NCBI GenBank assembly: GCA_903824665.1 | Contig: CAIJXT010000026.1 | Coordinates: 1-64,000 of the forward strand | Source of the DNA: an uncultured Bacteroidota bacterium | Lineage (GTDB): Bacteria > Bacteroidota > Bacteroidia > Chitinophagales > Chitinophagaceae | Reading direction: 5' to 3' | Length of the DNA stretch: 64,000 bases | In this document: positions 43,830 to 58,201 of the stretch, in pieces | How the letters are laid out: every line of letters starts with the position of its first letter | Position numbering within the stretch: position 1 is the first letter of the stretch | Position numbers and translations under genes: made by a program | The notes under the pieces: model-generated | Databases searched by the model: none | The model's input: the letters and a program-made list of their open reading frames with translations, nothing else | Told to the model about the DNA's origin: nothing

Positions 43830-46800
43830 CTAGTCGCCCAGCTCTATCGCAGCCTCGTGCCAAGGAAAAGACTCTGCATTCCGGCTGTATTCCCAATAGA
43901 ATTTTCCACGTTTACGATCATAGTTCCCTATTTCGTTCATTGTTTCGGCATCATACAGGCGACCATTTACCATTGTATACCTGATGGTCTCTGTGTTTTT
44001 TATGTCATCAAGCGGATTCCTGTCCATCACAAGCAGATCAGCAAGTTTGCCCTGCTGCAGCGAACCGATCCAATCATCGAACCCAAGGCTTCGTGCAGGA
44101 TTTATGGTGGCAGTTTTCAAAGCCTCCATCGGGCTCATACCCCCCTGTGCCATCATCCATATTTCCCAATGTGCACCTATACCCTGTATCTGGCCATGAG
44201 CGCCCATATTGATGGTAACACCTGCATCACTCAATTTTTTAAGGCTGCGCGATACGAGCATATGGCCATTCTCATATTCTTCTTCAGGAGCCATCACCCT
44301 GTGACGGCTACGCGTATCTATCACGGCACGTGGGGTAAACCGCAGCAGCCTTTCCTTCTCCCAAACATTGGTATGTTGATACCAGTAATATTCCCCGCTC
44401 AGCGCACCATAGCTAACGATCAGTGTCGGAGTATTGGCCGTACCTGACCTTTTCCAAAACTCTATAACATCATTGTATAGAGGTGCAACCGGTATGTTGT
44501 GTTCTATTGTGGTGTGGCCATCCATGATCATGCTCATGTTGTGATAAAAGAACGAACCACCCTCTGGTACTACTTCCACTTTCAACTCCCGGGCAGCTTC
44601 AATCACCATCTGGCGTTGCTCGCGGCGCGGCTGATTGTAACTTTTCACACTAAATGCGCCAAAAGCCTGCGTGCGCCGCAGCGCGCTCTTCGCATCCTCG
44701 AGGGAATTGATCACTGCTTTAAAATCGCCATCAGCTCCATACAGGATCATACCGGTTGAAAAAACCCTGGGCCCGGTCATGATGCCGGCCTTCACTAGCT
44801 CGCTCTGTGCAAATACCATTTCACTGTTTGCCGACGGATCGTGCATAGTAGTTACACCATATGCGAGATTGGCAAAATAGGCCCAATGCTTGTCCGGTGT
44901 AAGACCGTACCTGAAGTGATTGCCATGTGCGTGCGCGTCTATAAACCCGGGCATGATCGTTTTGCCACTGCAGTTGATCTCTTTCGCACCTGCCGGAACT
45001 TTCACATCCCTTCCTATCGCTTTTATGACATTACCCTCCACTACTATTGTCCCGTTCTCTATTACTTCATTCCCGTTCATTGTTATGATCCTGGCATTAG
45101 TCAGGGCTATCGTTCCGTCAGGTTTGTCTGTTTTCGCAGTTAGTCCCACAGATATGCCGGCCTCGGGTGCTTTAAACAGTGAATCAGCCTTACCGGATAC
45201 AAACTCAAAGCGGTCTTCAAGATTGATTGTGTAATACTGATCACCAAGCGTGTAATGCAATTTTTTGTTGTCGCCACTCCAGTGCAGGTTTATCCCTGCA
45301 TCTCTCGACACCTTCTTTACAGGTATATCGGTAACGTCATCGCCCAATGTGATGGTTTTTCCGGTATGAGGAAACAGCGCGATATAAACGGCATGAAGGT
45401 GCACAAAAGCCACCCAGTTACCATCGGGCGAAACCGTGAACTGGCTGCCATATTTACATTTAATAAGCGCCTTTTCATCACTTCCATCCAGCTTACAACT
45501 GCTGAACGCTCGCTCATACGGTGCAAGCTGGCTGCCACCTCCTTGAAAATAAATCCTGTTGCCATCGGCACTGAACTCAGGATTATCGCCCTTATCTGTT
45601 ACAAACACTTCTTTACCTCCATTTGCAGGCAGGTAGTAAATCCCTGGCTTCACCGTGTAGCTGTTACCCATATCGCCATTGCTGGCTTCCCGCCCATATA
45701 CAAGCCATTTGCCATCGGGCGAAAATGAAGGCGTACGGAACATACCCTTTGTTGTCGTGATCACCTGGGGCTTTGCCTTGGCGTCCATAGCCACTTTGCA
45801 GATATTGCCGGCGAGTGTATCATTCCAGGAAACGTATACCAGCCATTTACCATCGGCGGAAAACGCCGGCTCTGATTCCTGCACACTGCTATTGGTGATC
45901 CGCTCGGGCTTACCGTCTGGCAACGCCTTACGGTAAATATGTCCGAGAGCATTAAAAACCATCCACTTACCATCAGGCGATGTTGTAGCATGACGTATCA
46001 CCTTCGCTGTGAACTCAGAGGGGTTCAGATCCTGCTTGTACCGCACCGCATCAGTGATGTGTTGTTTTACATTGCAGGTAAACGGGATTTCAGAAGCTGT
46101 ATTGACACTGCCAGCTTCAATTTTCATGATTTTACCACCACTCCAGATCACAATATTCTTATCGTCTGGTGTCCATGCAAAACCGGTATAAATGCCGAAT
46201 ACCGTCCAGGCTTCCTGCTGATCTTTCGACAACTTGTCATAAACTGGCCATTCCTCTCCGTTTTCCAGATTGCGCAGGTACAGTACTGTTTTTGTCCTTA
46301 CCCTTTTCACAAAAGCAAGCAGCTTACCATTGTGCGATACCTGTGGCCTTACCGCACCGCCAGGCCCACCTGTTACCGTCTCTATCTCGCCCTTCTCCCG
46401 ATCATACCTTTTGATTACAAATATCTGATTGTTGGGATCCTTATTGTATTGAAAAAAACCGCCCGGGTACATATCCTCACTATAATACACATAACGCCCG
46501 TCTGGTGAAGCACAGGGTTCATTAAGGTCCTGCTGATCGTTCTTACGTGCGGTCAGCTGCAAACCTCCCCCACCCGATATATGGTACATCCACAACTCAC
46601 CTGCTCCCAGCGACCTTCCGGAAGTGAAGTGTTTACGTGCAACAATGTAATTATTGTCTACCCAAACACCGTTGTTGAGCAGCCTGAAGCTTTCTTTGGT
46701 TATCTGCACGGCACTGCTGCCATCTTTGTTCATCATCCATACATTATCGCCACCACCCGCATCTGATGTAAAGAGGATCTTCTTGCCGTCAGGGCAGAAC

Positions 46801-47096
46801 CTCGGCTGCACTTCCATAGCCATACCTGCACGCAGCACTTGTGCATTTCCACCTCCGACGGGCATGATGTATATATCTCCCAGCAAGTCGAATACGATGT
46901 CTTTGCCATCGGGCGACACATCGAGGTTCATCCACGTTCCTTCATTCACTGCAAAAGAAACATCTTTACCGGGGCCGCCGGGCTTATTTACATCCCACTT
47001 CTTTTTGGCGTCCTTTGTATCCTGTGCAATCGTCGCTACCGACATGCCCGAAAGCAACACAAGAGCGAATAATCGTTTAATGGTCATTTTTTGCAT
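43830..47096 (-). CDS. Periplasmic beta-propeller (TolB/WD40-like) fused to amidohydrolase
   Basis: A 1,088-residue exported enzyme. A signal peptide (MTIKRLFALVLLSGMSVATIAQ) precedes a PD40/WD40-like propeller of about 600 residues, with repeated SPDGKWL/F signatures (VSPDGKDIVF, CPDGKKILF, FSADGKWLVY, FSPDGKWLVY). Residues about 665-1070 are an amidohydrolase: GFIDAHAHG (HxH metal ligands), a possible carboxylated Lys in FSVKSYNQP, EHN (His) and GTDxH-like segments near NMGAHGQ. The family is common in Bacteroidota; the substrate is unknown, possibly a peptide or cyclic amide. Confidence 0.88.
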   Translation of the reverse strand: MQKMTIKRLFALVLLSGMSVATIAQDTKDAKKKWDVNKPGGPGKDVSFAVNEGTWMNLDVSPDGKDIVFDLLGDIYIMPVGGGNAQVLRAGMAMEVQPRFCPDGKKILFTSDAGGGDNVWMMNKDGSSAVQITKESFRLLNNGVWVDNNYIVARKHFTSGRSLGAGELWMYHISGGGGLQLTARKNDQQDLNEPCASPDGRYVYYSEDMYPGGFFQYNKDPNNQIFVIKRYDREKGEIETVTGGPGGAVRPQVSHNGKLLAFVKRVRTKTVLYLRNLENGEEWPVYDKLSKDQQEAWTVFGIYTGFAWTPDDKNIVIWSGGKIMKIEAGSVNTASEIPFTCNVKQHITDAVRYKQDLNPSEFTAKVIRHATTSPDGKWMVFNALGHIYRKALPDGKPERITNSSVQESEPAFSADGKWLVYVSWNDTLAGNICKVAMDAKAKPQVITTTKGMFRTPSFSPDGKWLVYGREASNGDMGNSYTVKPGIYYLPANGGKEVFVTDKGDNPEFSADGNRIYFQGGGSQLAPYERAFSSCKLDGSDEKALIKCKYGSQFTVSPDGNWVAFVHLHAVYIALFPHTGKTITLGDDVTDIPVKKVSRDAGINLHWSGDNKKLHYTLGDQYYTINLEDRFEFVSGKADSLFKAPEAGISVGLTAKTDKPDGTIALTNARIITMNGNEVIENGTIVVEGNVIKAIGRDVKVPAGAKEINCSGKTIMPGFIDAHAHGNHFRYGLTPDKHWAYFANLAYGVTTMHDPSANSEMVFAQSELVKAGIMTGPRVFSTGMILYGADGDFKAVINSLEDAKSALRRTQAFGAFSVKSYNQPRREQRQMVIEAARELKVEVVPEGGSFFYHNMSMIMDGHTTIEHNIPVAPLYNDVIEFWKRSGTANTPTLIVSYGALSGEYYWYQHTNVWEKERLLRFTPRAVIDTRSRHRVMAPEEEYENGHMLVSRSLKKLSDAGVTINMGAHGQIQGIGAHWEIWMMAQGGMSPMEALKTATINPARSLGFDDWIGSLQQGKLADLLVMDRNPLDDIKNTETIRYTMVNGRLYDAETMNEIGNYDRKRGKFYWEYSRNAESFPWHEAAIELGD

Positions 47097-47231: not shown

Positions 47232-47873
47232 CTATTTCACGGAAACCACGCCCGCTTTTATAGCATACATGGCAAGACCGGTACGTGTAGTGATATTCAG
47301 CTTTTTGAACAGCGCCTCTCTGTAGCCATCTATTGTCCGTGGGCTCAGGCACATTTCATCCGCTATCTCTTTATAAGTCATTTCGGTAGAGCAATATTTG
47401 AGGAACTGCAGCTCACGGTCATTCAGTTCTATATTCATGCGCCCCTCAGGATCATGAAGAATGTGCAACATTCGCCCTGTTACGATATCAGAATGGTAAA
47501 AGCCATTTTTGTAAACAGCATTGATTGCCTGACGCAACTCTTCCGGATCTGAGTCTTTAAGCACATAGCCATTTGCACCGTTCCGCAGCATTTTGATCAC
47601 ATTCAACTCTGTATCATACATCGAAAGCGCCAGGATCTTTATATCGGGCCAGCGCTTTCTGACCTCTGATGCAGTTTCGTAGCCATTCATCACCGGCATA
47701 TTGATATCAAGTATACACACATCCGGCAAGGGAGATGTTGCGGCCATCTTGTCCAGCAGATCTCTACCATTCCCTGCCTCCAGTACTACTGCTATATTCT
47801 CAAATTGCGAAAGCACCCCCGCCACACCTTTGCGGAGCATCGCGTGATCGTCAGCTAAAGCTACTTTTATCAT
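47232..47873 (-). CDS. LuxR-type (NarL family) response regulator
   Basis: A 213-residue two-component regulator. The receiver domain has ADDH (Asp8-Asp9), phosphoacceptor Asp56 in ILDINMP, Ser in LSMYD and Lys in VLKDSD. A LuxR-type helix-turn-helix follows at about 150-205 (NDRELQFLKYCSTEMTYKEIADEMCLSPRTIDGYREALFKKL). It is the last gene of the six-gene cluster, 91 bp after its likely partner kinase; targets unknown. Confidence 0.95.
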   Translation of the reverse strand: MIKVALADDHAMLRKGVAGVLSQFENIAVVLEAGNGRDLLDKMAATSPLPDVCILDINMPVMNGYETASEVRKRWPDIKILALSMYDTELNVIKMLRNGANGYVLKDSDPEELRQAINAVYKNGFYHSDIVTGRMLHILHDPEGRMNIELNDRELQFLKYCSTEMTYKEIADEMCLSPRTIDGYREALFKKLNITTRTGLAMYAIKAGVVSVK

Positions 47874-47964
47874 TTTTCGGAAAATGGGAAATCTTCAGCG
47901 AGTGATATAAAAGCTTAAAGCTATAAAAAAGTGTGAATTATTTAAATAGTTGATTCAAAGAATT

Positions 47965-48741
47965 TTATCTGTTGATCTCTAACCTTATTCTGGTCCCTAC
48001 ATTTTTTTCAGATACAACCTCCAGTTTACTCTTCAGCAGGTCGGTACGTACATACATATTGCTGAGCCCTATCCCGCTGCTGGCAACATTGTCTGTCTCA
48101 AAACCCGAACCATTGTCGGCAACTGTCACGCACAAAGCTAGTGGCGTATAGTCCAGGTAAACATCTATTGCTGCCGGCGCAGCATGCTTTATGGCATTGG
48201 TGATTGCCTCCTGTATTATTCTGAATATCAGCAATTCCCGTTCGTTTCCCATGCTGTATTCATCGCCGCTGCGGTGTAGCGTACATTGCATATCTCTCGC
48301 CGATCGCACATATTCCAGATCCTTATTTACAGCATCCACCAGACCAGCCGTATTTACAAATGTACTGTTCAGCGTGTGGCTGATGTTGCGCAGATCCGAT
48401 ATTGCCTTACTCAACAAGTCCGTACACTCTCCTGCCTTTGAGATGATCTGCTGCTCCTTACTGTTGTTGCGGATATTGTACAACTGCATTTTTACTATGC
48501 TGAGCAATTGGCCTATGTTGTCATGTATCTCTTCAGAAAAATACTTGAAAGACTGCTCCTGCACTTCCATCCGGGATAGTAACAACTGACTGTGATAGTT
48601 GTTTTCAAGCGCCTGCTTTTCCAGCAAGTGTTCATACCGCTTCTTTTTGTGCACTATGAGAAAGATAACCAGTGTAAATGCAAAAAGCATGAGGGTAAGC
48701 GTACCTCCCAAAAAAGTGATCAGATCATTGTCTAGCGTCAT
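47965..48741 (-). CDS. Sensor histidine kinase (HisKA_3/HATPase), membrane-tethered
   Basis: A 258-residue kinase. One hydrophobic helix (residues 10-30), a coiled coil, then a HisKA_3 region with the phosphoacceptor His73 in SEEIHDNIGQLL and the LSKAISDLRNISHTLN helix; the HATPase contains EAITNAIKHA, VADNGSGFE and SSGIGLSNM. It lacks any periplasmic sensor, and its first 17 bases overlap the end of the seven-helix gene upstream, so the membrane protein is the natural candidate for sensing. Cognate regulator downstream. Confidence 0.95.
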   Translation of the reverse strand: MTLDNDLITFLGGTLTLMLFAFTLVIFLIVHKKKRYEHLLEKQALENNYHSQLLLSRMEVQEQSFKYFSEEIHDNIGQLLSIVKMQLYNIRNNSKEQQIISKAGECTDLLSKAISDLRNISHTLNSTFVNTAGLVDAVNKDLEYVRSARDMQCTLHRSGDEYSMGNERELLIFRIIQEAITNAIKHAAPAAIDVYLDYTPLALCVTVADNGSGFETDNVASSGIGLSNMYVRTDLLKSKLEVVSEKNVGTRIRLEINR

Positions 48742-49378
48742 TATTTATCATTTTGGGATAATAAAGGAATACAAATCCAAAAGCACCGTAGGAGATAATG
48801 TTGATTACCAATTGTATGACCCTTGCCAGCTCGTGGTGATTGTTGGCAGCATATAGTGCATGAATATAAGACCAGAAAAAATAGGTAAAGCAATAAATGA
48901 AAACGAGCAGCATGGTTATCCAGAAATGCGGATGCCGCTTTACACTGACTATATTGTCACTGATAAACATTTTATAAAAATAACTCAGACACATCACCGC
49001 AACAACTAAACCCCGAAAACGCAAAGTGTTTGTGGGTAAAGTCGTGACTGGCTGAAAATAGATCAGGTTGACCAGTCCGGTAAGAACAAAAAGCAGCGTG
49101 CTTAGCTGCATCAACAAACGTTTGTGACGAAACGCTGCCAGATCGATATAGTATGCTGTAACCAATGTAAGACTTATTACAGCTGTGACATGGTACACGG
49201 GATTCTTCATCTGAAACCAGTAATAACTCAACCTAGCACTTACTTCACCGGTTATCGCAAAAATCAGCAGCAACAGCACGATGCGTGTGCTTCTGTCAAT
49301 TTTTCGATATTGCAATGACCCGCAGATGATACTGAATAGCATGGCCGCGAGCAAAACATAAAATAATATCAGGATCAT
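48725..49378 (-). CDS. Seven-helix membrane protein B2, overlapping the kinase gene
   Basis: A 217-residue polytopic protein with about seven hydrophobic helices and short loops, and no recognised domain. Shared features with the protein at 50477-51160 are a similar length, an early ITGE/VTEV turn, a PV/PI...TL..N..R.RGL loop in the middle, and FWxTMLL...TYFFW/FLIVT...TYLY near the sixth helix. The 3' end overlaps the kinase start by 17 bases, so translation is coupled. Likely a signal-receiving membrane module, by inference. Confidence 0.75.
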   Translation of the reverse strand: MILILFYVLLAAMLFSIICGSLQYRKIDRSTRIVLLLLIFAITGEVSARLSYYWFQMKNPVYHVTAVISLTLVTAYYIDLAAFRHKRLLMQLSTLLFVLTGLVNLIYFQPVTTLPTNTLRFRGLVVAVMCLSYFYKMFISDNIVSVKRHPHFWITMLLVFIYCFTYFFWSYIHALYAANNHHELARVIQLVINIISYGAFGFVFLYYPKMINNDARQ

Positions 49379-49407
49379 TGTCTGGTAACCATTTTCCTGC
49401 GGTTTCG

Positions 49408-50277
49408 CTACTTCTTTACTTTCTTATCTTTTTTGCGATCCATGGCGGTTCCGTCCTGATGGTGGTAATCCATGCTGGCATCAAACTGCACCAGGCAGGT
49501 CGGGCAGGGGTCGCTTTCGTCAAACATGGTCTGGTTGTCATTTACATCCCTGCCCCAGATATGCCTGCCCATGTTGTCGGTTCCGATGAGCATAGCCGTA
49601 AAATTGTCGTACCGCTCCTGGTATTTATAGCCCATATAAATTTGCAGATACTCAATTCCCCTGTTGTACTGCAGATAATTTTTAATCTCGTTGGCCGACA
49701 TGATAAATGACTCCGTAACAAATACTTTAGGCCAATATACCTCATTGTCGTTTCCGCGCTGAAAATTTTTAATGTATTCTTTCGCCATTGCCGTGTCAAT
49801 TATGCCCACCGTGCAATTCGCTATATCACAGTTGTCTGCACCGCCATCCATGTAATCAATATCTTCGTCAAACGGCACACAACAGTTAGGTTCGGATACA
49901 GGTGTAGCCCAGATTTTACTGCGGCTGTCATGAACAATGCGTGTACCGCCCTGTCCATCCGATTCCTGAACAGCGCCAGTGATAACCATCATCTTTTCTT
50001 TCTTTTCGCCGCCCTGTCCATCAGGTGTGATTTTCGTTCCGAAATACAAATGCAGATAGGTCTTTTGATTATCCGAAGCACCCAGCAGATAATCCCCAAT
50101 TCCCTCGCCTTTGGAAAGCGATTTGATCAAAAAAGAGCTGGGGTGCAGCCTGTAAGACTGAAATCTTTTTACATGCCGCTTACCTACGCTGGTTTTAATA
50201 ATAGAACCCGACTGTGCGTACGAATGAACATCAATTCCAAAGAAAAAAAGAATAAATACAACAATTGCTTTTTTCAT
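49408..50277 (-). CDS. Secreted protein A2 with two copies of a Cys-containing unit
   Basis: A 289-residue protein starting at ATG 50277 (a TTG three codons earlier also opens the frame). Signal peptide MKKAIVVFILFFFGIDVHSYAQ. It holds a duplicated unit of about 95-100 residues: copy 1 (about 42-137) SSFLIKS...YLHLYFGTK...MMVITG...GTRI...NCCVPFD; copy 2 (about 168-266) ESFIMSA...YLQIYMGYK...AMLIGT...GRHI...CPTCLVQFD. The tail is strongly basic (MDRKKDKKVKK). The neighbouring lipoprotein carries one further copy. I recognise no family. Possibly a ligand or partner of the membrane protein that follows. Confidence 0.8.
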   Translation of the reverse strand: MKKAIVVFILFFFGIDVHSYAQSGSIIKTSVGKRHVKRFQSYRLHPSSFLIKSLSKGEGIGDYLLGASDNQKTYLHLYFGTKITPDGQGGEKKEKMMVITGAVQESDGQGGTRIVHDSRSKIWATPVSEPNCCVPFDEDIDYMDGGADNCDIANCTVGIIDTAMAKEYIKNFQRGNDNEVYWPKVFVTESFIMSANEIKNYLQYNRGIEYLQIYMGYKYQERYDNFTAMLIGTDNMGRHIWGRDVNDNQTMFDESDPCPTCLVQFDASMDYHHQDGTAMDRKKDKKVKK

Positions 50278-50476
50278 AAATCTCAAATATTTTCAGACTT
50301 AAAAATAGAAAAATTTCGCTGTTTATACATTATTTGTTTGTTGGTATTGGTATAAACGGTAGCGATCAATGCCACCTCATCGCATGCGTTGTTTTTTAAA
50401 TACAACAAGTAGTAATACAACAAAAACATTAACTACTATTATCACGCACCCTACAAAAAAAATCGGCAAAATTATT

Positions 50477-51160
50477 TCAGTCACTGTCGATAACATTTTT
50501 TTTAAGGAGTATTGGCAAAACTCCAAGTATTAAATAAGTGAAACAGTTTACAATACAATATACCGGATATACTATTTGAAAAAAAAGGACACTATTATTC
50601 CGATATATAATATCATAGACGCCATTATACAAATATGTAATGGACCAAAAGAAAAGAAATATCGTTACAATCAGAAAATCAAGATTTCGAAACAAACGCA
50701 GCTTTGAGTCATCTGAAAAAAACCTGTAATAGGCTACCAGCGATACAAGAATAATATAAAACCCTTCAAAAATAAAAAAATAGGTATATAGCCCCTTTAC
50801 CCTCTTTATATTATCATTTTTTATAAGTGTAAAATATTTCCCAATGGGAAAATAAGTATCCATCAAAACGACAAAAAGAAAGCACAAAACAAGTCCAATA
50901 AAAATGTTTAGAATCGGCCGTTTGTGCTTTCTAAAAAAATAATAGAGAATCAACGCAAACTGAACAGGACAGAGCATCAAGTATACAAACAGATTGTATC
51001 TGTACATTACCAGACAAATAACACCAATCACTTCTGTTACGAATACTGTTGCCAGGTACACAAATATTATCTTCAACGCAGCAGGTAAAATCTTGAAGTT
51101 AATGGCATATACAGCACAAGCTGCAAATACTATTGAAATATACAGGTATATAAAGTACAT
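50477..51160 (-). CDS. Seven-helix membrane protein B1
   Basis: A 227-residue protein with about seven hydrophobic helices. It resembles the second membrane protein at 48725-49378 in length and in several turns, but the two are divergent. Its start overlaps the stop of the lipoprotein gene at one base, so the two are translationally coupled. No recognised domain. Confidence 0.75.
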   Translation of the reverse strand: MYFIYLYISIVFAACAVYAINFKILPAALKIIFVYLATVFVTEVIGVICLVMYRYNLFVYLMLCPVQFALILYYFFRKHKRPILNIFIGLVLCFLFVVLMDTYFPIGKYFTLIKNDNIKRVKGLYTYFFIFEGFYIILVSLVAYYRFFSDDSKLRLFRNLDFLIVTIFLFFWSITYLYNGVYDIIYRNNSVLFFQIVYPVYCIVNCFTYLILGVLPILLKKNVIDSD

Positions 51161-51849
51161 TATTTTCCTCTGATTATCTGAGTATGTCCTGGTGGCCTCG
51201 AATAAGTTGCCGAAACTGTCCCGGTAAACACATTGTCAAATGCAGCCTGTCCAACTTCAGGACAAGCAGATGGGCAACCAGCAATTTGATTATAGACTTC
51301 ACTTCCAATAGTAATGTAATTGCCTGTTGCATCATATGGAACAACAACTAAACTCATTACAGGCACTTCTCTCGTATTGTCATTACATAAAATGAGTTTA
51401 AAGTACTTTATCTTATTTCCAGTAGGAATTGTTATCGGCGCATCCGGATCATGGCTAAAATAATCATAAAACACATGGGCATCGACAAAAAACGACCTCA
51501 ATTGCGTTTTCTCATCTCCTGCCGCAATTGTTGTCAGGTAATTTTCGACTTTCGCATCTGCTGCAGAAAGGGAAATCAATTGTCCCATTTTTAGCATTGC
51601 CCTAGGAATTGGCGCAAATAATGGAGGCGTAAAAGCATTCAACATAGTAGTTGAGGAATCAAAATGACCAATGTTTTTTGTCGAATACCCCATTTTCTCA
51701 AAATAGGCTCTTATTACCGCCTGCGTATCACACCGTACTGCTGACGATTTGCTTGTGTCAGGGATTCCACTTTCAGTACCTTTTTCTCCGCATCCAATGG
51801 AAAGAATAAAAGAAAACAGCATCGAAATCCAAAAAAATGTTTTTTTCAT
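51160..51849 (-). CDS. Lipoprotein A1 sharing the Cys-containing unit
   Basis: A 229-residue lipoprotein: signal LFSFILSIGC with the lipid-attachment Cys at residue 20. The unit near residues 100-205 reads YLTTIAAGD...SFFVDAHVFYDYF...KIKYFKLILC...VPVMSLVVVPYDATGNYI...CPSACPEVGQAAFD and aligns with both copies in the secreted protein downstream (same order of SF.V, Y(F/L)xL, hydrophobic strand, D..G..I and C..C..FD). No recognised family. First gene of the cluster, with a -7 box upstream. Confidence 0.8.
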   Translation of the reverse strand: MKKTFFWISMLFSFILSIGCGEKGTESGIPDTSKSSAVRCDTQAVIRAYFEKMGYSTKNIGHFDSSTTMLNAFTPPLFAPIPRAMLKMGQLISLSAADAKVENYLTTIAAGDEKTQLRSFFVDAHVFYDYFSHDPDAPITIPTGNKIKYFKLILCNDNTREVPVMSLVVVPYDATGNYITIGSEVYNQIAGCPSACPEVGQAAFDNVFTGTVSATYSRPPGHTQIIRGK

Positions 51850-52745: not shown

Positions 52746-53630
52746 ATGGAAATGTATCAGATAAATGACCTCGAACGGTTGACGGGTGTAAAAGCACATA
52801 CCATCAGAATATGGGAAAAAAGGTATAGTATCATTCATCCCAACCGAACTGAAACAAATCGTAGGTATTACGATGATACGCAAATGCGTAAACTGCTCAA
52901 TGTAACTACCCTGCTTTCACAAGGGCATAAAATATCTAAAATTGCGGCATTTAGCGACGATGAGATATTCAAACATATTGAAAAAGATGCTGAATTACAT
53001 GGGTCTGCACATATAAACACCACCTATATCAACGACCTCGTAGTGACCATGCTTGCTTTTGATGAAGCAGGATTCGAAAAGGTTTTCTCTGCCGCTGTAT
53101 TGCGTATGGGCATGTACGAAACCATGCTTCATGTAGTTTATCCCTTTCTCAACAAGACAGGTGTACTCTGGACAATCAACAAAACTGTGCCTGTTCAGGA
53201 ACATTTTGCTTCTTGTATCATCCGGCGCAAACTGATGTCGGCGACAGACGGGCTGCTACCACCCCATAAAAAGAACAATCGTTTCCTGCTGTTTCTGCCG
53301 CCTGGCGAGTGGCACGAAATTGTTCTGCTATTCTCCAACTACATCATTCGCTCACATGGCTACGATACCATATACCTGGGGCAAAACGTACCTGTGGAGA
53401 ATATCAGAAAAATGCTGGAATCAGTAAGCGTTCAACACATACTCACATTCTTTATTACAACCCGACCTGCTGACGAACTGAAGGATTTAGTTGCAAACTA
53501 TGCAGGCATGGATAAAAAAGTAAAGATGCTTATAGCCGGAAACAGGGATATACTCAACGATCCAAAAATGCTTCCGAAAAATGTTTCTTTTATGGATGGC
53601 GTAGGGAGTCTCATTGAATTGCTGAAGTAA
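52746..53630 (+). CDS. MerR-type regulator with cobalamin-binding domain (CarH/LitR-like)
   Basis: A 294-residue predicted light-dependent repressor. An N-terminal MerR helix-turn-helix (MYQINDLERLTGVKAHTIRIWEKRY...RRYYDDTQ) is followed by a B12 domain: W142-x9-E152-H153, the exact Wx9EH motif whose His is the upper ligand after photolysis, and E188-x-H190 in GEWHEIVLL, whose His should be the lower cobalt ligand. The usual Gly of ExHxxG is Val here. In CarH, adenosylcobalamin is the chromophore and light releases repression. It directly precedes crtI on the same strand, 49 bp away, so it may autoregulate. Confidence 0.88.
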   Translation: MEMYQINDLERLTGVKAHTIRIWEKRYSIIHPNRTETNRRYYDDTQMRKLLNVTTLLSQGHKISKIAAFSDDEIFKHIEKDAELHGSAHINTTYINDLVVTMLAFDEAGFEKVFSAAVLRMGMYETMLHVVYPFLNKTGVLWTINKTVPVQEHFASCIIRRKLMSATDGLLPPHKKNNRFLLFLPPGEWHEIVLLFSNYIIRSHGYDTIYLGQNVPVENIRKMLESVSVQHILTFFITTRPADELKDLVANYAGMDKKVKMLIAGNRDILNDPKMLPKNVSFMDGVGSLIELLK

Positions 53631-53679
53631 GTGTTATCCAATAAAATGTTTAAATAATAACTACAAATACACAACAAAA

Positions 53680-55149
53680 TTGAAGAACTTTTCGGTGATC
53701 GGTAGTGGGTTTTCAGGTATGTCGGCGGCTTGTTTTCTTGCCAAAGCCGGCAATGATGTGACCGTGTACGAAAAGAACACTACCAATGGTGGAAGGGCAA
53801 GATCTTTTACTGAACAGGGATTCACATTTGACATGGGGCCAAGCTGGTATTGGATGCCTGATGTTTTTGAAAAGTTCTTCGGTAATTTCGGAATGCATCC
53901 GTCAGACTATTATGAACTGGTGCAGCTTGATCCCGGTTTTCAGGTCATATTTGGCAAAGACAATGTACTGGCTGTACCTGCGTCCATGGCTGGTATTGAA
54001 GATATGTTTGAAGGCATAGAAAAGGGAAGTGCCGTAAAACTGAAAAAGTTTCTCGATGAGGGTCGTTACATGTACAATACCGGCATGCAACACCTTGTTT
54101 ACCGCCCTTCATATTCGTGGGCAGAGTATATCAACTATGATGTACTAAAAGGTGTTACCAAACTCCATGTCTTCCAGTCGGTACGCAGCCACGTACGTAG
54201 CTATTTTAAAGATGAGCGGCTGGTAGCACTTATGGAGTTCCCGGTGCTGTTTCTGGGCGCTATGGCACACCAGATACCTGCATTGTACAGCCTGATGAAC
54301 TATGCAGCACTCTCGCTGGGCACATGGTACCCCATGGGCGGAATGCTGAAAATACCACAGGCTATGGAAGATCTTGCCCGATCGATGGGTGTACAGTTCC
54401 GCAATGATTGTGAGATCACAAAGCTGAATGTAGCCAACGGCAGCGTAACCAGCCTGAACACGATAAACGGAACGCCGCATACCAATGGCGTGATAGCAAC
54501 AGGCGACTATCACCACATGGAGCAATACCTGCTCGAACCACAATACAGAAACTATACAGAGCAATACTGGACCAAGAAAACGTTTGCGCCATCGTGCCTC
54601 ATTTTCTATATAGGAGTCAATAAGCGTGTCAAGAAACTCATTCACCACAATCTGTTTTTCGATGCATCTATCGACAAGCATTCTAACGATATATATACCG
54701 ACCCGCAGTGGCCCGAAGACCCGCTATTCTACGCGTGCTGCCCTTCTAAGACAGATCCGGATGTGGCTCCTGAAGGCATGGAAAATCTGTTTGTTCTCAT
54801 ACCTGTAGCACCGGGCCTGAAAGACACTGAAGAAGTGCGTGAGCGCTATTACAAAAAGGTGATGAGCCGCATGGAGCAATGGTGTGGCGACACGATCACT
54901 GAACATGTTGTGTACAAGCGCAGTTACTGCATCAACGATTTCATGGCCGACTACCACTCCTACAAAGGCAATGCGTACGGACTGGCCAATACATTGATGC
55001 AGACCGCTGTGCTGAAACCATCCCTGCGCAACAAAACTATTAAAAACCTGTTTTATGCCGGTCAGCTTACCGTGCCCGGACCCGGTGTGCCACCTGCGCT
55101 GATATCGGGGCAGATAGCCGCCGGCCAATTACTAAAAAATACAAATTAA
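53680..55149 (+). CDS. crtI: Phytoene desaturase
   Basis: FAD enzyme introducing double bonds into phytoene towards lycopene (CrtI type). The N-terminal dinucleotide motif VIGSGFSGMSAACFLAKAG is followed by ENT.GGRARS, and the C-terminal carotenoid desaturase signature LFYAGQLTVPGPGVPPALISGQIAA is present. The start is TTG at 53680; no ATG is in frame. Length 489 is typical. It is followed by crtB after 7 bases, so the genes form one transcript. Confidence 0.95.
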   Translation: MKNFSVIGSGFSGMSAACFLAKAGNDVTVYEKNTTNGGRARSFTEQGFTFDMGPSWYWMPDVFEKFFGNFGMHPSDYYELVQLDPGFQVIFGKDNVLAVPASMAGIEDMFEGIEKGSAVKLKKFLDEGRYMYNTGMQHLVYRPSYSWAEYINYDVLKGVTKLHVFQSVRSHVRSYFKDERLVALMEFPVLFLGAMAHQIPALYSLMNYAALSLGTWYPMGGMLKIPQAMEDLARSMGVQFRNDCEITKLNVANGSVTSLNTINGTPHTNGVIATGDYHHMEQYLLEPQYRNYTEQYWTKKTFAPSCLIFYIGVNKRVKKLIHHNLFFDASIDKHSNDIYTDPQWPEDPLFYACCPSKTDPDVAPEGMENLFVLIPVAPGLKDTEEVRERYYKKVMSRMEQWCGDTITEHVVYKRSYCINDFMADYHSYKGNAYGLANTLMQTAVLKPSLRNKTIKNLFYAGQLTVPGPGVPPALISGQIAAGQLLKNTN

Positions 55150-55156
55150 CTATACT

Positions 55157-55993
55157 ATGAAGCAGTTATTCGACAACGTATCTGCCGGATGCAGCAAACT
55201 GGCCACGAGAACCTACAGTACCAGCTTTTCGCTGGGCATACATTGCCTCAGCAAAACCATACATGCCCCTATCTACGCTATCTACGGCTTCGTAAGGTTT
55301 GCAGATGAGATCGTAGACTCTTTTCATGATTTCAATAAAAAGGAGCTGTTCTACGAGTTCAGAGAAGAAACCTGGCGCGCTATTGGGAGAGGAATCAGCA
55401 TGAACCCCATTCTGAACAGCTTTCAGGATGTGGTGAACAAGTACAAAATTGACCACGACCTGATTGCCACCTTCCTGCGGAGTATGGAGATAGACCTTGA
55501 AAGGACTGCCCACTCTGGCGAGACTTACGACGAATATATTGTAGGATCGGCGGAGGTAGTGGGCCTGATGTGCCTGAAAGTATTTACGGGTGATGATGAC
55601 AACCTTTACACCAGCCTGGTACCTGCTGCCCGCAAATTGGGTGCAGCCTTTCAGAAAGTCAATTTCCTGCGCGATATCAAGGCCGACTACGAACACCTGG
55701 GCAGGGTATACTTTCCGGGTGTAGCCTTCGGATCTTTTTCAGAGCATGACAAAAAGCGTATCGAAGACGATATAGAAAACGACTTTCGCGAGGCGTTTGA
55801 AGGCATCAAAAAACTGCCGGGCAATGCACGGTTTGGAGTGTATGTAGCCTATATGTACTACCGCACACTTTTCAACAAGATACGCAGCGTATCACCATCA
55901 CGTATTCGCGAACAACGGGTACGTATTTCGAACCATCGCAAAATTGGCCTGCTGGTAACATCTTATTTCAGGCACAGCTTCAGCATTCTTTAA
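55157..55993 (+). CDS. crtB: Phytoene synthase
   Basis: Condenses two geranylgeranyl diphosphates to phytoene. Two Asp-rich motifs are visible: the first at DEIVD (50-54), the second in KVNFLRDIKADY. RTYSTSFSLGI and GAAFQKVNFLRDI are typical of the squalene/phytoene synthase fold. 278 residues, normal. The GGPP synthase gene is not in the window. It lies 10 bases before idi. Confidence 0.95.
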   Translation: MKQLFDNVSAGCSKLATRTYSTSFSLGIHCLSKTIHAPIYAIYGFVRFADEIVDSFHDFNKKELFYEFREETWRAIGRGISMNPILNSFQDVVNKYKIDHDLIATFLRSMEIDLERTAHSGETYDEYIVGSAEVVGLMCLKVFTGDDDNLYTSLVPAARKLGAAFQKVNFLRDIKADYEHLGRVYFPGVAFGSFSEHDKKRIEDDIENDFREAFEGIKKLPGNARFGVYVAYMYYRTLFNKIRSVSPSRIREQRVRISNHRKIGLLVTSYFRHSFSIL

Positions 55994-56003
55994 ATCCGCA
56001 CCC

Positions 56004-56528
56004 ATGGAACGAGTAGTATTAGTAGACGAACAGGACAACGAAACCGGCCTGATGGAAAAACAGCAGGCACATATAGAAGGAAAACTCCACCGAGCTATCT
56101 CTGTCTTTGTATTCAACACAAAACACGAACTGCTGCTGCAGCAGCGCGCCGGTGGCAAGTACCACTCTGCACTGCAATGGACCAACACCTGCTGCAGCCA
56201 TCCGCGCAGTGGCGAGGATGTGGCTACAGCAGCAGCCCGCCGTCTTATGGAAGAGATGGGCATATCCTGCACACTCACTCCTGCATTCACATTTGTATAC
56301 CGTGCCGACCTCGGCAACGGCCTTACCGAACATGAGTTTGACCATGTGTTTACCGGCATCTGCGACGACCCGCCGGTACCCGACACCGAAGAGGTGGCCG
56401 ACTGGAAATATATCCCGGCAGATGAGCTGCTCAGGAGTATGGCAGCCAATCCTGGCAGGTACACACCCTGGTTCAGACTATGTGTAGACAACCATTACGA
56501 ATCACTTTTTACCAATAGCAAAATATGA
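56004..56528 (+). CDS. idi: Isopentenyl-diphosphate delta-isomerase (type 1)
   Basis: Nudix-type enzyme that interconverts IPP and DMAPP to supply prenyl precursors. Visible motifs: NTCCSHPRSGEDVATAAARRLMEEMG (with catalytic Cys, His ligands and the Nudix Glu residues) and GLTEHEFDHVF (EHExDH metal/catalytic site). 174 residues, normal. Its stop overlaps the next gene start by four bases (ATGA), so they are translationally coupled. It is cotranscribed within the carotenoid operon. Confidence 0.95.
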   Translation: MERVVLVDEQDNETGLMEKQQAHIEGKLHRAISVFVFNTKHELLLQQRAGGKYHSALQWTNTCCSHPRSGEDVATAAARRLMEEMGISCTLTPAFTFVYRADLGNGLTEHEFDHVFTGICDDPPVPDTEEVADWKYIPADELLRSMAANPGRYTPWFRLCVDNHYESLFTNSKI

Positions 56529-56995
56529 AAACATACACACTACAGCGCGAGCAGTTGCTACCTATATCCATCGACGAAGCATGGGCTTTCTTCTCAACAC
56601 CTGCAAACCTATCTGAGATCACCCCACCGGAAATGCAATTCGAGATACTGAGCGATGTGCTGGGCAAACCAATCTTCAATGGCATGCGCATCAACTACTT
56701 TGTACGCCCGCTGCTGAACATAAAGATGAAATGGACCACCGAGATAACCGGTGTAGATGCCCCCCATATGTTTACCGACCGGCAAGAGCGCGGCCCATAC
56801 AGTCTGTGGGAGCATACCCATACCTTTGTTCCCGCACCCGGTGGCACTCTTATGACAGACCAAATAAAATACGCCCTACCTTTGGGCATTCTGGGCTCCA
56901 TAATGCATGGCATAGTGGTAGAAAAAAAATTAAAGAACATATTTGACTTCAGGGCAAAAAAGCTTGCTCAACTATTCGGGAAACAAAAGAAATAA
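56525..56995 (+). CDS. SRPBCC-family protein within the carotenoid operon
   Basis: A 156-residue SRPBCC protein: LLPISIDEAWAFFSTPANLSEITPPEM at the start, then beta strands and TDQIKYALPLGILGSIMHGIVVEKKLKNIFDFRAKKLAQLF, as in family members annotated as cell-division inhibitor-like or ligand-binding proteins. It overlaps idi by 4 bases and precedes crtZ by 5 bases. Such genes are frequent in bacterial carotenoid clusters; the role is unknown, perhaps carotenoid or isoprenoid handling. Confidence 0.8.
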   Translation: MKTYTLQREQLLPISIDEAWAFFSTPANLSEITPPEMQFEILSDVLGKPIFNGMRINYFVRPLLNIKMKWTTEITGVDAPHMFTDRQERGPYSLWEHTHTFVPAPGGTLMTDQIKYALPLGILGSIMHGIVVEKKLKNIFDFRAKKLAQLFGKQKK

Positions 56996-57000
56996 CCAAC

Positions 57001-57474
57001 ATGTGGCAGACAAACTTATTGATCACAATAGCGTCCTTTCTGTGTATGGAGGCTGTTGCCTGGCTTACACACAAGTATGTAATGCATGGGTTGCTGTGGA
57101 ACCTGCATGAGGACCACCACAAGAAAAACCCGTCTTCATTCTTTGAGAAAAACGACTACTTCTTTCTCATTTTTGCCATCCCGGGTATACTGTGCCTTGC
57201 AGCAGGCATATACGGCACATACACCCATCTGGCATTTATAGGGCTGGGTATTACCATCTATGGTTTTGCCTACTTTATGGTGCACGATATATTCATTCAC
57301 CAGCGTTTCAAGTTCTTCCGCAATGCCGACAACTTCTACTTCCGTGCCATAAGGCGGGCACACAAAATGCACCACAAACATCTGGGCAAGGAAGACGGCG
57401 AGTGCTTTGGTATGCTGTGGGTGCCACTAAAGTACTTTGCTGAAGCTATGAAAAGAAAACAAACACATGCCTGA
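57001..57474 (+). CDS. crtZ: Beta-carotene hydroxylase
   Basis: Membrane non-heme di-iron hydroxylase adding 3-hydroxyl groups to beta-carotene to give zeaxanthin. The His boxes are HKYVMH (24-29), HEDHH (36-40), HDIFIHQRF and HKMHHKH. Four hydrophobic helices flank them. 157 residues, normal for CrtZ. Its 3' end overlaps the cyclase gene by 8 bases. Confidence 0.93.
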
Positions 57475-58201
57475 CCGCTACCTGTACCTGCTGGTAGATG
57501 CAGGATGCCTGTTGTTTCCGCTGGCCTTTTCGTTTCACCCGCACTTCAGGTTTGTGACACAGTGGCGGCACTTTGTGTTACCGTGCCTGTTTACAGCGGC
57601 CTTCTTCCTTGTCTGGGACGCGCTCTTTACCCGCGCCGGCATCTGGAACTTTAACCCACGATATGTAACCGGCATTCATCTGTACAACCTACCCATTGAG
57701 GAGTGCCTGTTTTTCCTGTGCATACCCTATGCCTGTGTATTCACCTACTACTGCCTTGGCCTGTACGTGCCGCTTACACGCTTTACCCGGGTGGCTGAGC
57801 TCATTACGTTTGTGCTTATTGGTTTGCTGCTCAGTGTTGCCGCTACCAATCTGTACAAGCTCTACACGTCCGTCACCTTCTCGCTGCTGGCCTGCCTGCT
57901 GATGTTGCTGGTAGTGCGGCGGGTACAATACATGGCGGCATTCTACACCACCTTCCTGCTTATACTGCTACCCTTCTTCCTGTCCAACGGCATACTTACG
58001 GGTGCCTTTACGCAAGAGGCTGTAGTACGCTACAACGACGCCCACAATCTGGGTATCCGCATGGTCACTATACCGTTTGAAGATACCTTTTATGGTATGC
58101 TGCTGCTGCTGCTGAACGTAGCAGGTTACGAGTATATGAAAACACGATCGGCAGGTGCTACGGCCCGCCAGATAATGGGTAATAACAAGCACACCAAATA
58201 G
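57467..58201 (+). CDS. Lycopene cyclase, fused CarR-like domain type
   Basis: A 244-residue membrane protein with two copies of the heterodimeric lycopene cyclase domain (crtYc and crtYd equivalents fused). Each half has an acidic motif: the first [15 protein letters not shown] (PxEE), the second [15 protein letters not shown] (PxED). Seven or more helices. It closes lycopene ends to beta-carotene, completing the substrate for crtZ. It overlaps crtZ by 8 bases. The stop is followed directly by the tRNA-Leu promoter. Confidence 0.88.

Follow-up and report, generated by a model that had tools for sequence, protein, structure and literature searches.

A conserved Bacteroidota two-component cassette with a putative split seven-helix receptor

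The window analysed here is a stretch of 64,000 nucleotides from an uncultured Bacteroidota bacterium of the Chitinophagaceae (positions 1-64,000 of contig CAIJXT010000026.1), and all window coordinates follow the numbering of this whole stretch. At 47232-51849 it carries a cluster of six genes that encode, in this order, protein A1, membrane protein B1, protein A2, membrane protein B2, a histidine kinase and a LuxR-type response regulator. Judged from sequence comparison, the cluster looks like one copy of a conserved signalling cassette that is widespread in Bacteroidota, in which an A-family protein (A), a B-family membrane protein (B), a kinase (K) and a regulator (R) are encoded side by side.

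To assess this conservation, single-protein searches were run against 195 genomes of the same family, which matched B2 in 88 genomes, B1 in 25, A1 in 19 and A2 in 2. Sixty family regions (L089-L148) were fetched, mostly around B matches and in a few cases around A matches. Further samples comprised 39 usable regions that represent other families of the phylum (L179-L217), chosen by B matches and containing a recognised B in 36 cases (not L192, L197 and L217), and 30 loci found through A (L149-L178), in which A-B adjacency is therefore biased and which partly repeat genomes of L089-L148. Named genera among these last include Taibaiella (T. helva, T. soli), Flavipsychrobacter and Pedobacter sp. 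MC2016-24. A simple longest-frame script served for gene calling, and iterated profiles for labelling the genes. The neighbour counts exclude L141, L142 and L143, which hold no A-B pair and were set aside before counting; no B was recognised in L140.

Among 124 distinct B proteins, selected by similarity to B or A and including those of the window, 111 are encoded directly upstream of a kinase gene, 95 of them overlapping it, and 100 are directly preceded by A. In the family regions, a kinase on the same strand follows directly after B in 57 of 59 cases and A directly precedes it in 50, the corresponding values being 33 and 29 of 43 B genes in the phylum regions and 30 and 29 of 30 in the A-found loci. 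Counted by locus, some B is directly followed by a kinase in all 56 family loci that have a B and in 33/36 phylum loci. Of 81 loci in which A, B and kinase have a regulator nearby, 65 carry it downstream of A-B-K and 16 ahead of A. A and B form a conserved unit and, in the loci examined, a kinase gene follows B directly with few exceptions. The co-occurrence of A, B and kinase homologues, whose absence would have told against a preliminary description of the cluster, is borne out.

Genome tallies are lower bounds, with 7 to 18 candidates scored per genome. The B profile was found in at least 161 of the 195 family genomes (expectation value, E, <= 1e-10) and in at least 81 of 395 genomes of the phylum (E <= 1e-5), often several times per genome, and the A profile in at least 105 of the 195 (E <= 1e-5). 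When the two listings were compared by eye, 104 of the 105 A-positive family genomes were also B-positive, and the remaining one (G017) contains a below-threshold B in the order R-A-B-K. Sixteen A matches seemed to stand alone; 14 of these have a B directly after A, followed in 11 by a kinase, and the other two (L241 and L244) look like chance matches. The genome of the window itself carries a second cassette at G000:C11 (L089). One cassette (L167) lies on a contig labelled Azovibrio restrictus, a metagenome-assembled genome of the Pseudomonadota; its gene order and gene lengths are those of L169, which is labelled Bacteroidota, and the contig is probably misbinned. The preliminary description knew of no described system of this shape, and a search of the open-licence part of PubMed Central likewise found no description of the cassette.

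The A proteins are held together by profile rather than pairwise similarity. A1 and A2 give no match in pairwise BLAST (E 0.87), and a single iterated A-family profile matches both (2.1e-34 for A1, which was a seed of it, and 7.5e-31 for A2, which was probably absorbed during iteration). A profile built without A2 still recovers A2 at 4.2e-12, and hhalign places the C-terminal half of A2 on the A unit with a probability of 98.2 (E 5e-14), in line with the earlier proposal that the two proteins share a unit. The N-terminal half of A2 resembles the unit weakly (hhalign probability 24-25%) and is possibly a diverged second copy. In general, an A protein is built from a single unit of some 115 residues with a tail behind it. 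Among 100 distinct A proteins, the last 60 residues contain CPxxC in 79 and the last 45 residues contain PP or CP in 99, both counted with no chance control; close to its end, A2 itself has CPTC, which is CPxC rather than CPxxC.

Export signals were assigned to the same 100 proteins by two home-made rules. The simple rule gave a lipobox in 49, another export signal in 13 and none in 38, and a looser version raised the exported total from 62 to 64; the frames of L122 and L161 begin too early and were scored as signal-less under the first. Neither Pfam nor NCBIfam has a family matched by more than one of 52 A proteins at E <= 0.01 (best 5.3e-4), and no PDB sequence was matched (best E 0.61). Very short A-like genes of 89-98 residues precede B in L114, L115 and L116; the A profile misses them, and their PP-containing tail is kept. 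The window genome also encodes a lone A2-like exported protein (G000:C23:22250-23095; L143 5248-6096), 38% identical to A2, with no B or regulator in the 12 kb examined and no cassette kinase beside it; the adjoining gene is one that we take to be ABC-F-like.

The two B proteins of the window are alike, as previously noted. Their pairwise match is weak (E 9e-4, 21% identity), and both match the B profile, of which both are rows. Structure models were made for B2 and for the A protein of L154, a well-sampled member of its family; A1 was compared with A2, and B1 with B2, through their profile relations. The B2 model is a seven-helix bundle (predicted local distance difference test, pLDDT, 91; predicted template modelling score 0.87) whose closest solved structures are G-protein-coupled receptors (GPCRs) and rhodopsins. 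An orientation with the N-terminus outside and the C-terminus inside is indicated by the odd-numbered loops, which are richer in Lys/Arg in 121 of the 124 B proteins. Conserved positions, given as the share of these 124 in B2 numbering, are E45 (0.78), N58 (0.80), Y62 (0.71), N104 (0.69) and Q109 (0.62), together with F152 (0.91) and W153 (0.82) where helix 6 begins on the cytoplasmic side; B2 itself has a lysine at position 58. The outer residues persist where A has no export signal (N58 at 0.81 in both groups, Q109 at 0.77 versus 0.50). Over the full set of 124 B proteins, Cys and His stay below 50% at every position, though H151 reaches 0.61 in the subset with exported A and C206 0.50 in the other subset. 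A comparison of 57 B proteins with enzyme and peptidase models of Pfam and NCBIfam gave single weak matches only (E 4.9e-4 or worse), and no convincing match to B was found in Pfam, NCBIfam or PDB sequences.

Within the window, all six genes lie on the minus strand at the places and in the order given by the preliminary description (Table 1), which also had the overlaps right: 1 nucleotide between A1 and B1 and 17 between B2 and the kinase. A2 starts with ATG, with an alternative TTG 9 nucleotides upstream. The HisKA_3, HATPase_c, receiver and GerE domains all score above their Pfam cut-offs and the kinase and regulator genes are adjacent, as in a two-component system. The kinase was said to have no sensor domain, and indeed none was found in Pfam or NCBIfam; HisKA_3 and HATPase_c are preceded by a short N-terminal segment containing a single hydrophobic helix.

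Table 1. Features of the A-B-kinase-regulator cluster in window coordinates.
Feature	Position	Strand	Description
A1	51160-51849	-	Probable lipoprotein: hydrophobic signal, then Cys20 (read from sequence); one A unit at about 92-207; ends CPSAC
B1	50477-51160	-	B-family multi-helix membrane protein
39-codon frame	50377-50496	-	Similar to the N-terminal membrane helix of cassette kinases; probably what is left of a first kinase
A2	49408-50277	-	Exported, Sec-type signal (read from sequence); A unit is the C-terminal half, residues 140-282
B2	48725-49378	-	Seven-helix B protein, 217 residues; predicted N-out/C-in; arrangement possibly GPCR/rhodopsin-like
Histidine kinase	47965-48741	-	One N-terminal hydrophobic helix (read from sequence), HisKA_3, HATPase_c
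Response regulator	47232-47873	-	Response_reg and LuxR-type GerE DNA-binding domain

A seventh feature, missed by the preliminary description, bears on the origin of the two A-B pairs. A frame of 39 codons overlaps the 3' end of B1 by 20 nucleotides, in the way that kinases overlap B elsewhere, and scores 14.9 bits against a profile of the first kinase helix. One of 189 control N-termini carrying a hydrophobic segment reaches this score; genuine kinase N-termini trimmed to 39 residues, themselves rows of the profile, score a median of 34.3 (10th percentile 15.3). The frame is probably the remnant of a lost first kinase, and the cluster would then probably represent two tandem cassettes, whose two A-B pairs share one kinase-regulator pair after the apparent loss of the first cassette's kinase. 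The earlier proposal that a module of exported protein and membrane protein had been duplicated and linked to a two-component system is not supported in that form: the kinase is already a member of the cassette elsewhere, in all family and nearly all phylum loci with a B, and the kinase-like remnant after B1 points to cassettes standing side by side, one of which lost its kinase.

Local tandem duplication of a single A-B pair within one cassette, as the preliminary description had proposed, concerns origin only and is compatible with any reading of function. We consider it possible, although the less probable history. Side-by-side extra B genes do recur (L118, L126, L195, L202, L214), and A-B-A-B-K-R is found again in L199, from another family. 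In the B tree, however, B1 pairs with the B of L129 (Shimodaira-Hasegawa-like approximate likelihood ratio test, SH-aLRT, 97) and B2 groups with L094, L092 and L106 (87), and the remnant after B1 likewise speaks for two cassettes; the approximately unbiased test does not reject B1 and B2 as sisters (p 0.357), so that local duplication retains some weight. Other arrangements among the loci are A-B-B-K-R (L118, L126), A-B-B-B-K-R (L195), B-A-B-K-R (L194), A-A-B-K-R (L191, L243) and B-K-R-A-B-K (L115, with the short A-like gene first). In L209 and L214, an A-B pair without an adjoining kinase lies between what are apparently the same two neighbour genes.

The kinase type changes while A-B stays constant: HisKA replaces HisKA_3 in L131 and L138, and kinases with PAS and HisKA stand behind A-B in L184 (HisKA below cut-off), L202 and L204. 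Together with the gene order, the overlaps and the sensor-less kinase, this exchange fits a chain from A through B and the kinase to the regulator. That A controls B, that B signals to the kinase and that the kinase signals to the regulator is a reading we hold with slightly more belief than doubt. The analysis shows the gene order and its conservation, the family relationships, the domain content, the predicted fold of B2 and the charge pattern of B; a contact between A and B, a contact between B and the kinase, the direction of signalling and a role for the tail are inferences. More specifically, B would be a separate seven-helix receptor subunit and A the dedicated partner that sets its state, probably through the conserved C-terminal CPxxC/PP tail, at or near the outward face of B. 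From its cytoplasmic side, B would hand the signal to the sensor-less kinase by way of the kinase's membrane helix and coiled coil, and the kinase would phosphorylate the LuxR-type regulator. For A, a role as co-receptor or tethered ligand is preferred over one as released signal or cargo. That B2 senses A2, as previously suggested for the window, is a plausible hypothesis.

Distance matrices over the 81 loci are in keeping with the chain, with partial correlations of 0.66 for A-B, 0.63 for K-R, 0.32 for B-K, 0.16 for A-K, 0.12 for B-R and -0.29 for A-R. Several observations weigh against the proposed chain, the first of which comes from the same matrices: in the 16 loci with R before A, the values are 0.01 for A-B, 0.27 for A-R and 0.64 for B-R. 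Since co-variation shifts with gene order, adjacency or relatedness may explain much of it. Furthermore, 36-38 of the 100 A proteins carry no export signal, a poor fit to a purely extracellular ligand, and these proteins are the main puzzle of the cassette. CPxxC is missing from the last 60 residues in 21 of the 100. The model of the L154 A protein is poor (pLDDT 61), with a better core whose 10-residue blocks reach pLDDT 86, and matches no PDB structure. B1 barely shows the charge pattern (8 versus 7 Lys/Arg), B outnumbers A in L118, L126, L195 and L202, and no fusion of B with a kinase was found among the loci.

In a different reading, A would be a secreted or surface signal between cells, that is, the precursor of a pheromone with the CPxxC/PP tail as its active peptide, and B and the kinase would form a split receptor in the style of ComX-ComP-ComA; we regard this as rather unlikely. 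The gene order would then run signal, receptor, kinase and regulator, with a HisKA_3 kinase and LuxR-type output, and pheromone precursors such as ComX can lack a signal peptide. The A unit of about 115 residues is nevertheless longer than a peptide and has a partly confident core, and the lipobox found in about half of the A proteins by the simple rule should anchor them in the membrane. The short C-terminal tail with its recurring CPxxC and PP or CP motifs suits a peptide signal, as does the A2-like protein without a B of its own elsewhere in the window genome. No constant processing enzyme stands out beside the cassette, however, where the flanking genes differ in length and strand among the loci in a comparison that did not take in their functions. 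It is quite improbable that B exports, processes or inserts A while the kinase and regulator merely control expression of the pair: A and B are tightly paired even without a kinase (L209, L214) and in the A1-B1 pair of the window, but most A proteins bring their own Sec-like or lipoprotein signal (64/100 by the looser rule), 95 of the 111 B genes followed by a kinase gene overlap it, no Cys or His of B attains 50% over the full set, and the enzyme or peptidase matches of B are single and weak.

A bolder extension of the chain from A to the regulator would see in B a phylum-wide set of bacterial GPCR-like receptors that occur as free-standing subunits, each switched by a small partner protein of its own, with the disulfide- or proline-locked C-terminal tail of the partner as a built-in ligand in the seven-helix pocket and exchangeable histidine kinases as output; bacteria would then possess seven-helix receptors with a protein as ligand. 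We offer this as a doubtful, tentative idea. If the chain itself is true, it would explain what many sensor-less Bacteroidota kinases listen to and would constitute a new type of bacterial seven-helix receptor, and the cassettes would lend themselves to testing by exchange of A or kinase and by deletion of the tail. The copy in the window, with two receptor pairs and one kinase, would be a natural experiment in signal integration. B is widespread, yet both A and B are without a convincing match in the family libraries searched.

The surroundings of the cluster were also inspected. Beside it, at 52746-58201 on the plus strand, lies a carotenoid-type gene cluster that encodes a MerR-type regulator with a B12-binding domain, a squalene/phytoene synthase, a NUDIX protein, a lycopene cyclase domain and a flavin amine-oxidase-family protein, which is presumably phytoene-desaturase-like. 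A large protein with a PD40 beta-propeller and an amidohydrolase part is encoded at 43830-47096 on the minus strand and is about 75% identical in two genomes of the same genus. The flanking 1088-residue gene is present in the same-genus genomes G171 and G097, where matches to A, B, kinase and regulator are absent from the 14.5 and 18 kb examined; G171 has cassettes at other places in its genome.

Due to its layout, the cassette invites comparison with several known systems. It resembles LiaF-LiaS-LiaR and VraT-VraS-VraR, in which a membrane protein gene directly precedes a HisKA_3 kinase and a LuxR-type regulator and the kinase has no large sensor domain; the window kinase matches the NCBIfam LiaS model, below its cut-off (72.6 bits, cut-off 450). 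Their membrane partner is an inhibitor from a different family. The cassette differs in having an A protein and in the seven predicted helices of B2, and there is no LiaF-type match among 57 B proteins in Pfam and NCBIfam at E <= 0.01. UhpC-UhpB-UhpA likewise combines a separate membrane sensor subunit with a HisKA_3 kinase and a LuxR-type regulator, and the window kinase matches the UhpB model, again below the cut-off (82.3 bits, cut-off 408). UhpC, however, belongs to the transporter type and UhpB itself contains many helices, whereas the sensor candidate of the cassette is a seven-helix protein of 217 residues and its kinase has one helix. Agr quorum sensing is defined by an AgrB-type membrane endopeptidase, and the same search of 57 B proteins gave no AgrB-type match, nor do the 124 B proteins share a Cys or His at 50% or more.

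In the ComQ-ComX-ComP-ComA cluster, as in the cassette, a small protein, a multi-helix receptor, a HisKA_3-type kinase and a LuxR-type regulator are encoded together, with the receptor helices and the kinase of ComP in one protein. In the window, B and the kinase are separate genes, no fusion of the two was found among the loci, and Pfam shows no ComQ-like protein among the six of the window. ComP is reported to sense the ComX pheromone (PMC8895600). The LytS-type kinase BtsS is reported to have seven membrane helices with the N-terminus outside (PMC10653868). At E <= 0.01, none of the 57 B proteins matches the Pfam models for 7TMR-DISM, 7TMR-HD or 5TMR-LYT. Proteins of the 7TMR-DISM and 7TMR-HD types and BtsS have seven membrane helices like B and, unlike B, are fused to output domains. 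Microbial rhodopsins carry a retinal-binding lysine in helix 7, and no lysine is present in helix 7 of B2 (model boundaries) or in the matching stretch of B1, the two proteins examined. The layout may work like LiaFSR, UhpCBA or ComXPA, whose tested defining features it does not share. As a whole, the cassette can be described as a two-component system in which a putative split seven-helix receptor and its dedicated partner protein, neither having a family in the libraries searched, stand together with the kinase and regulator.

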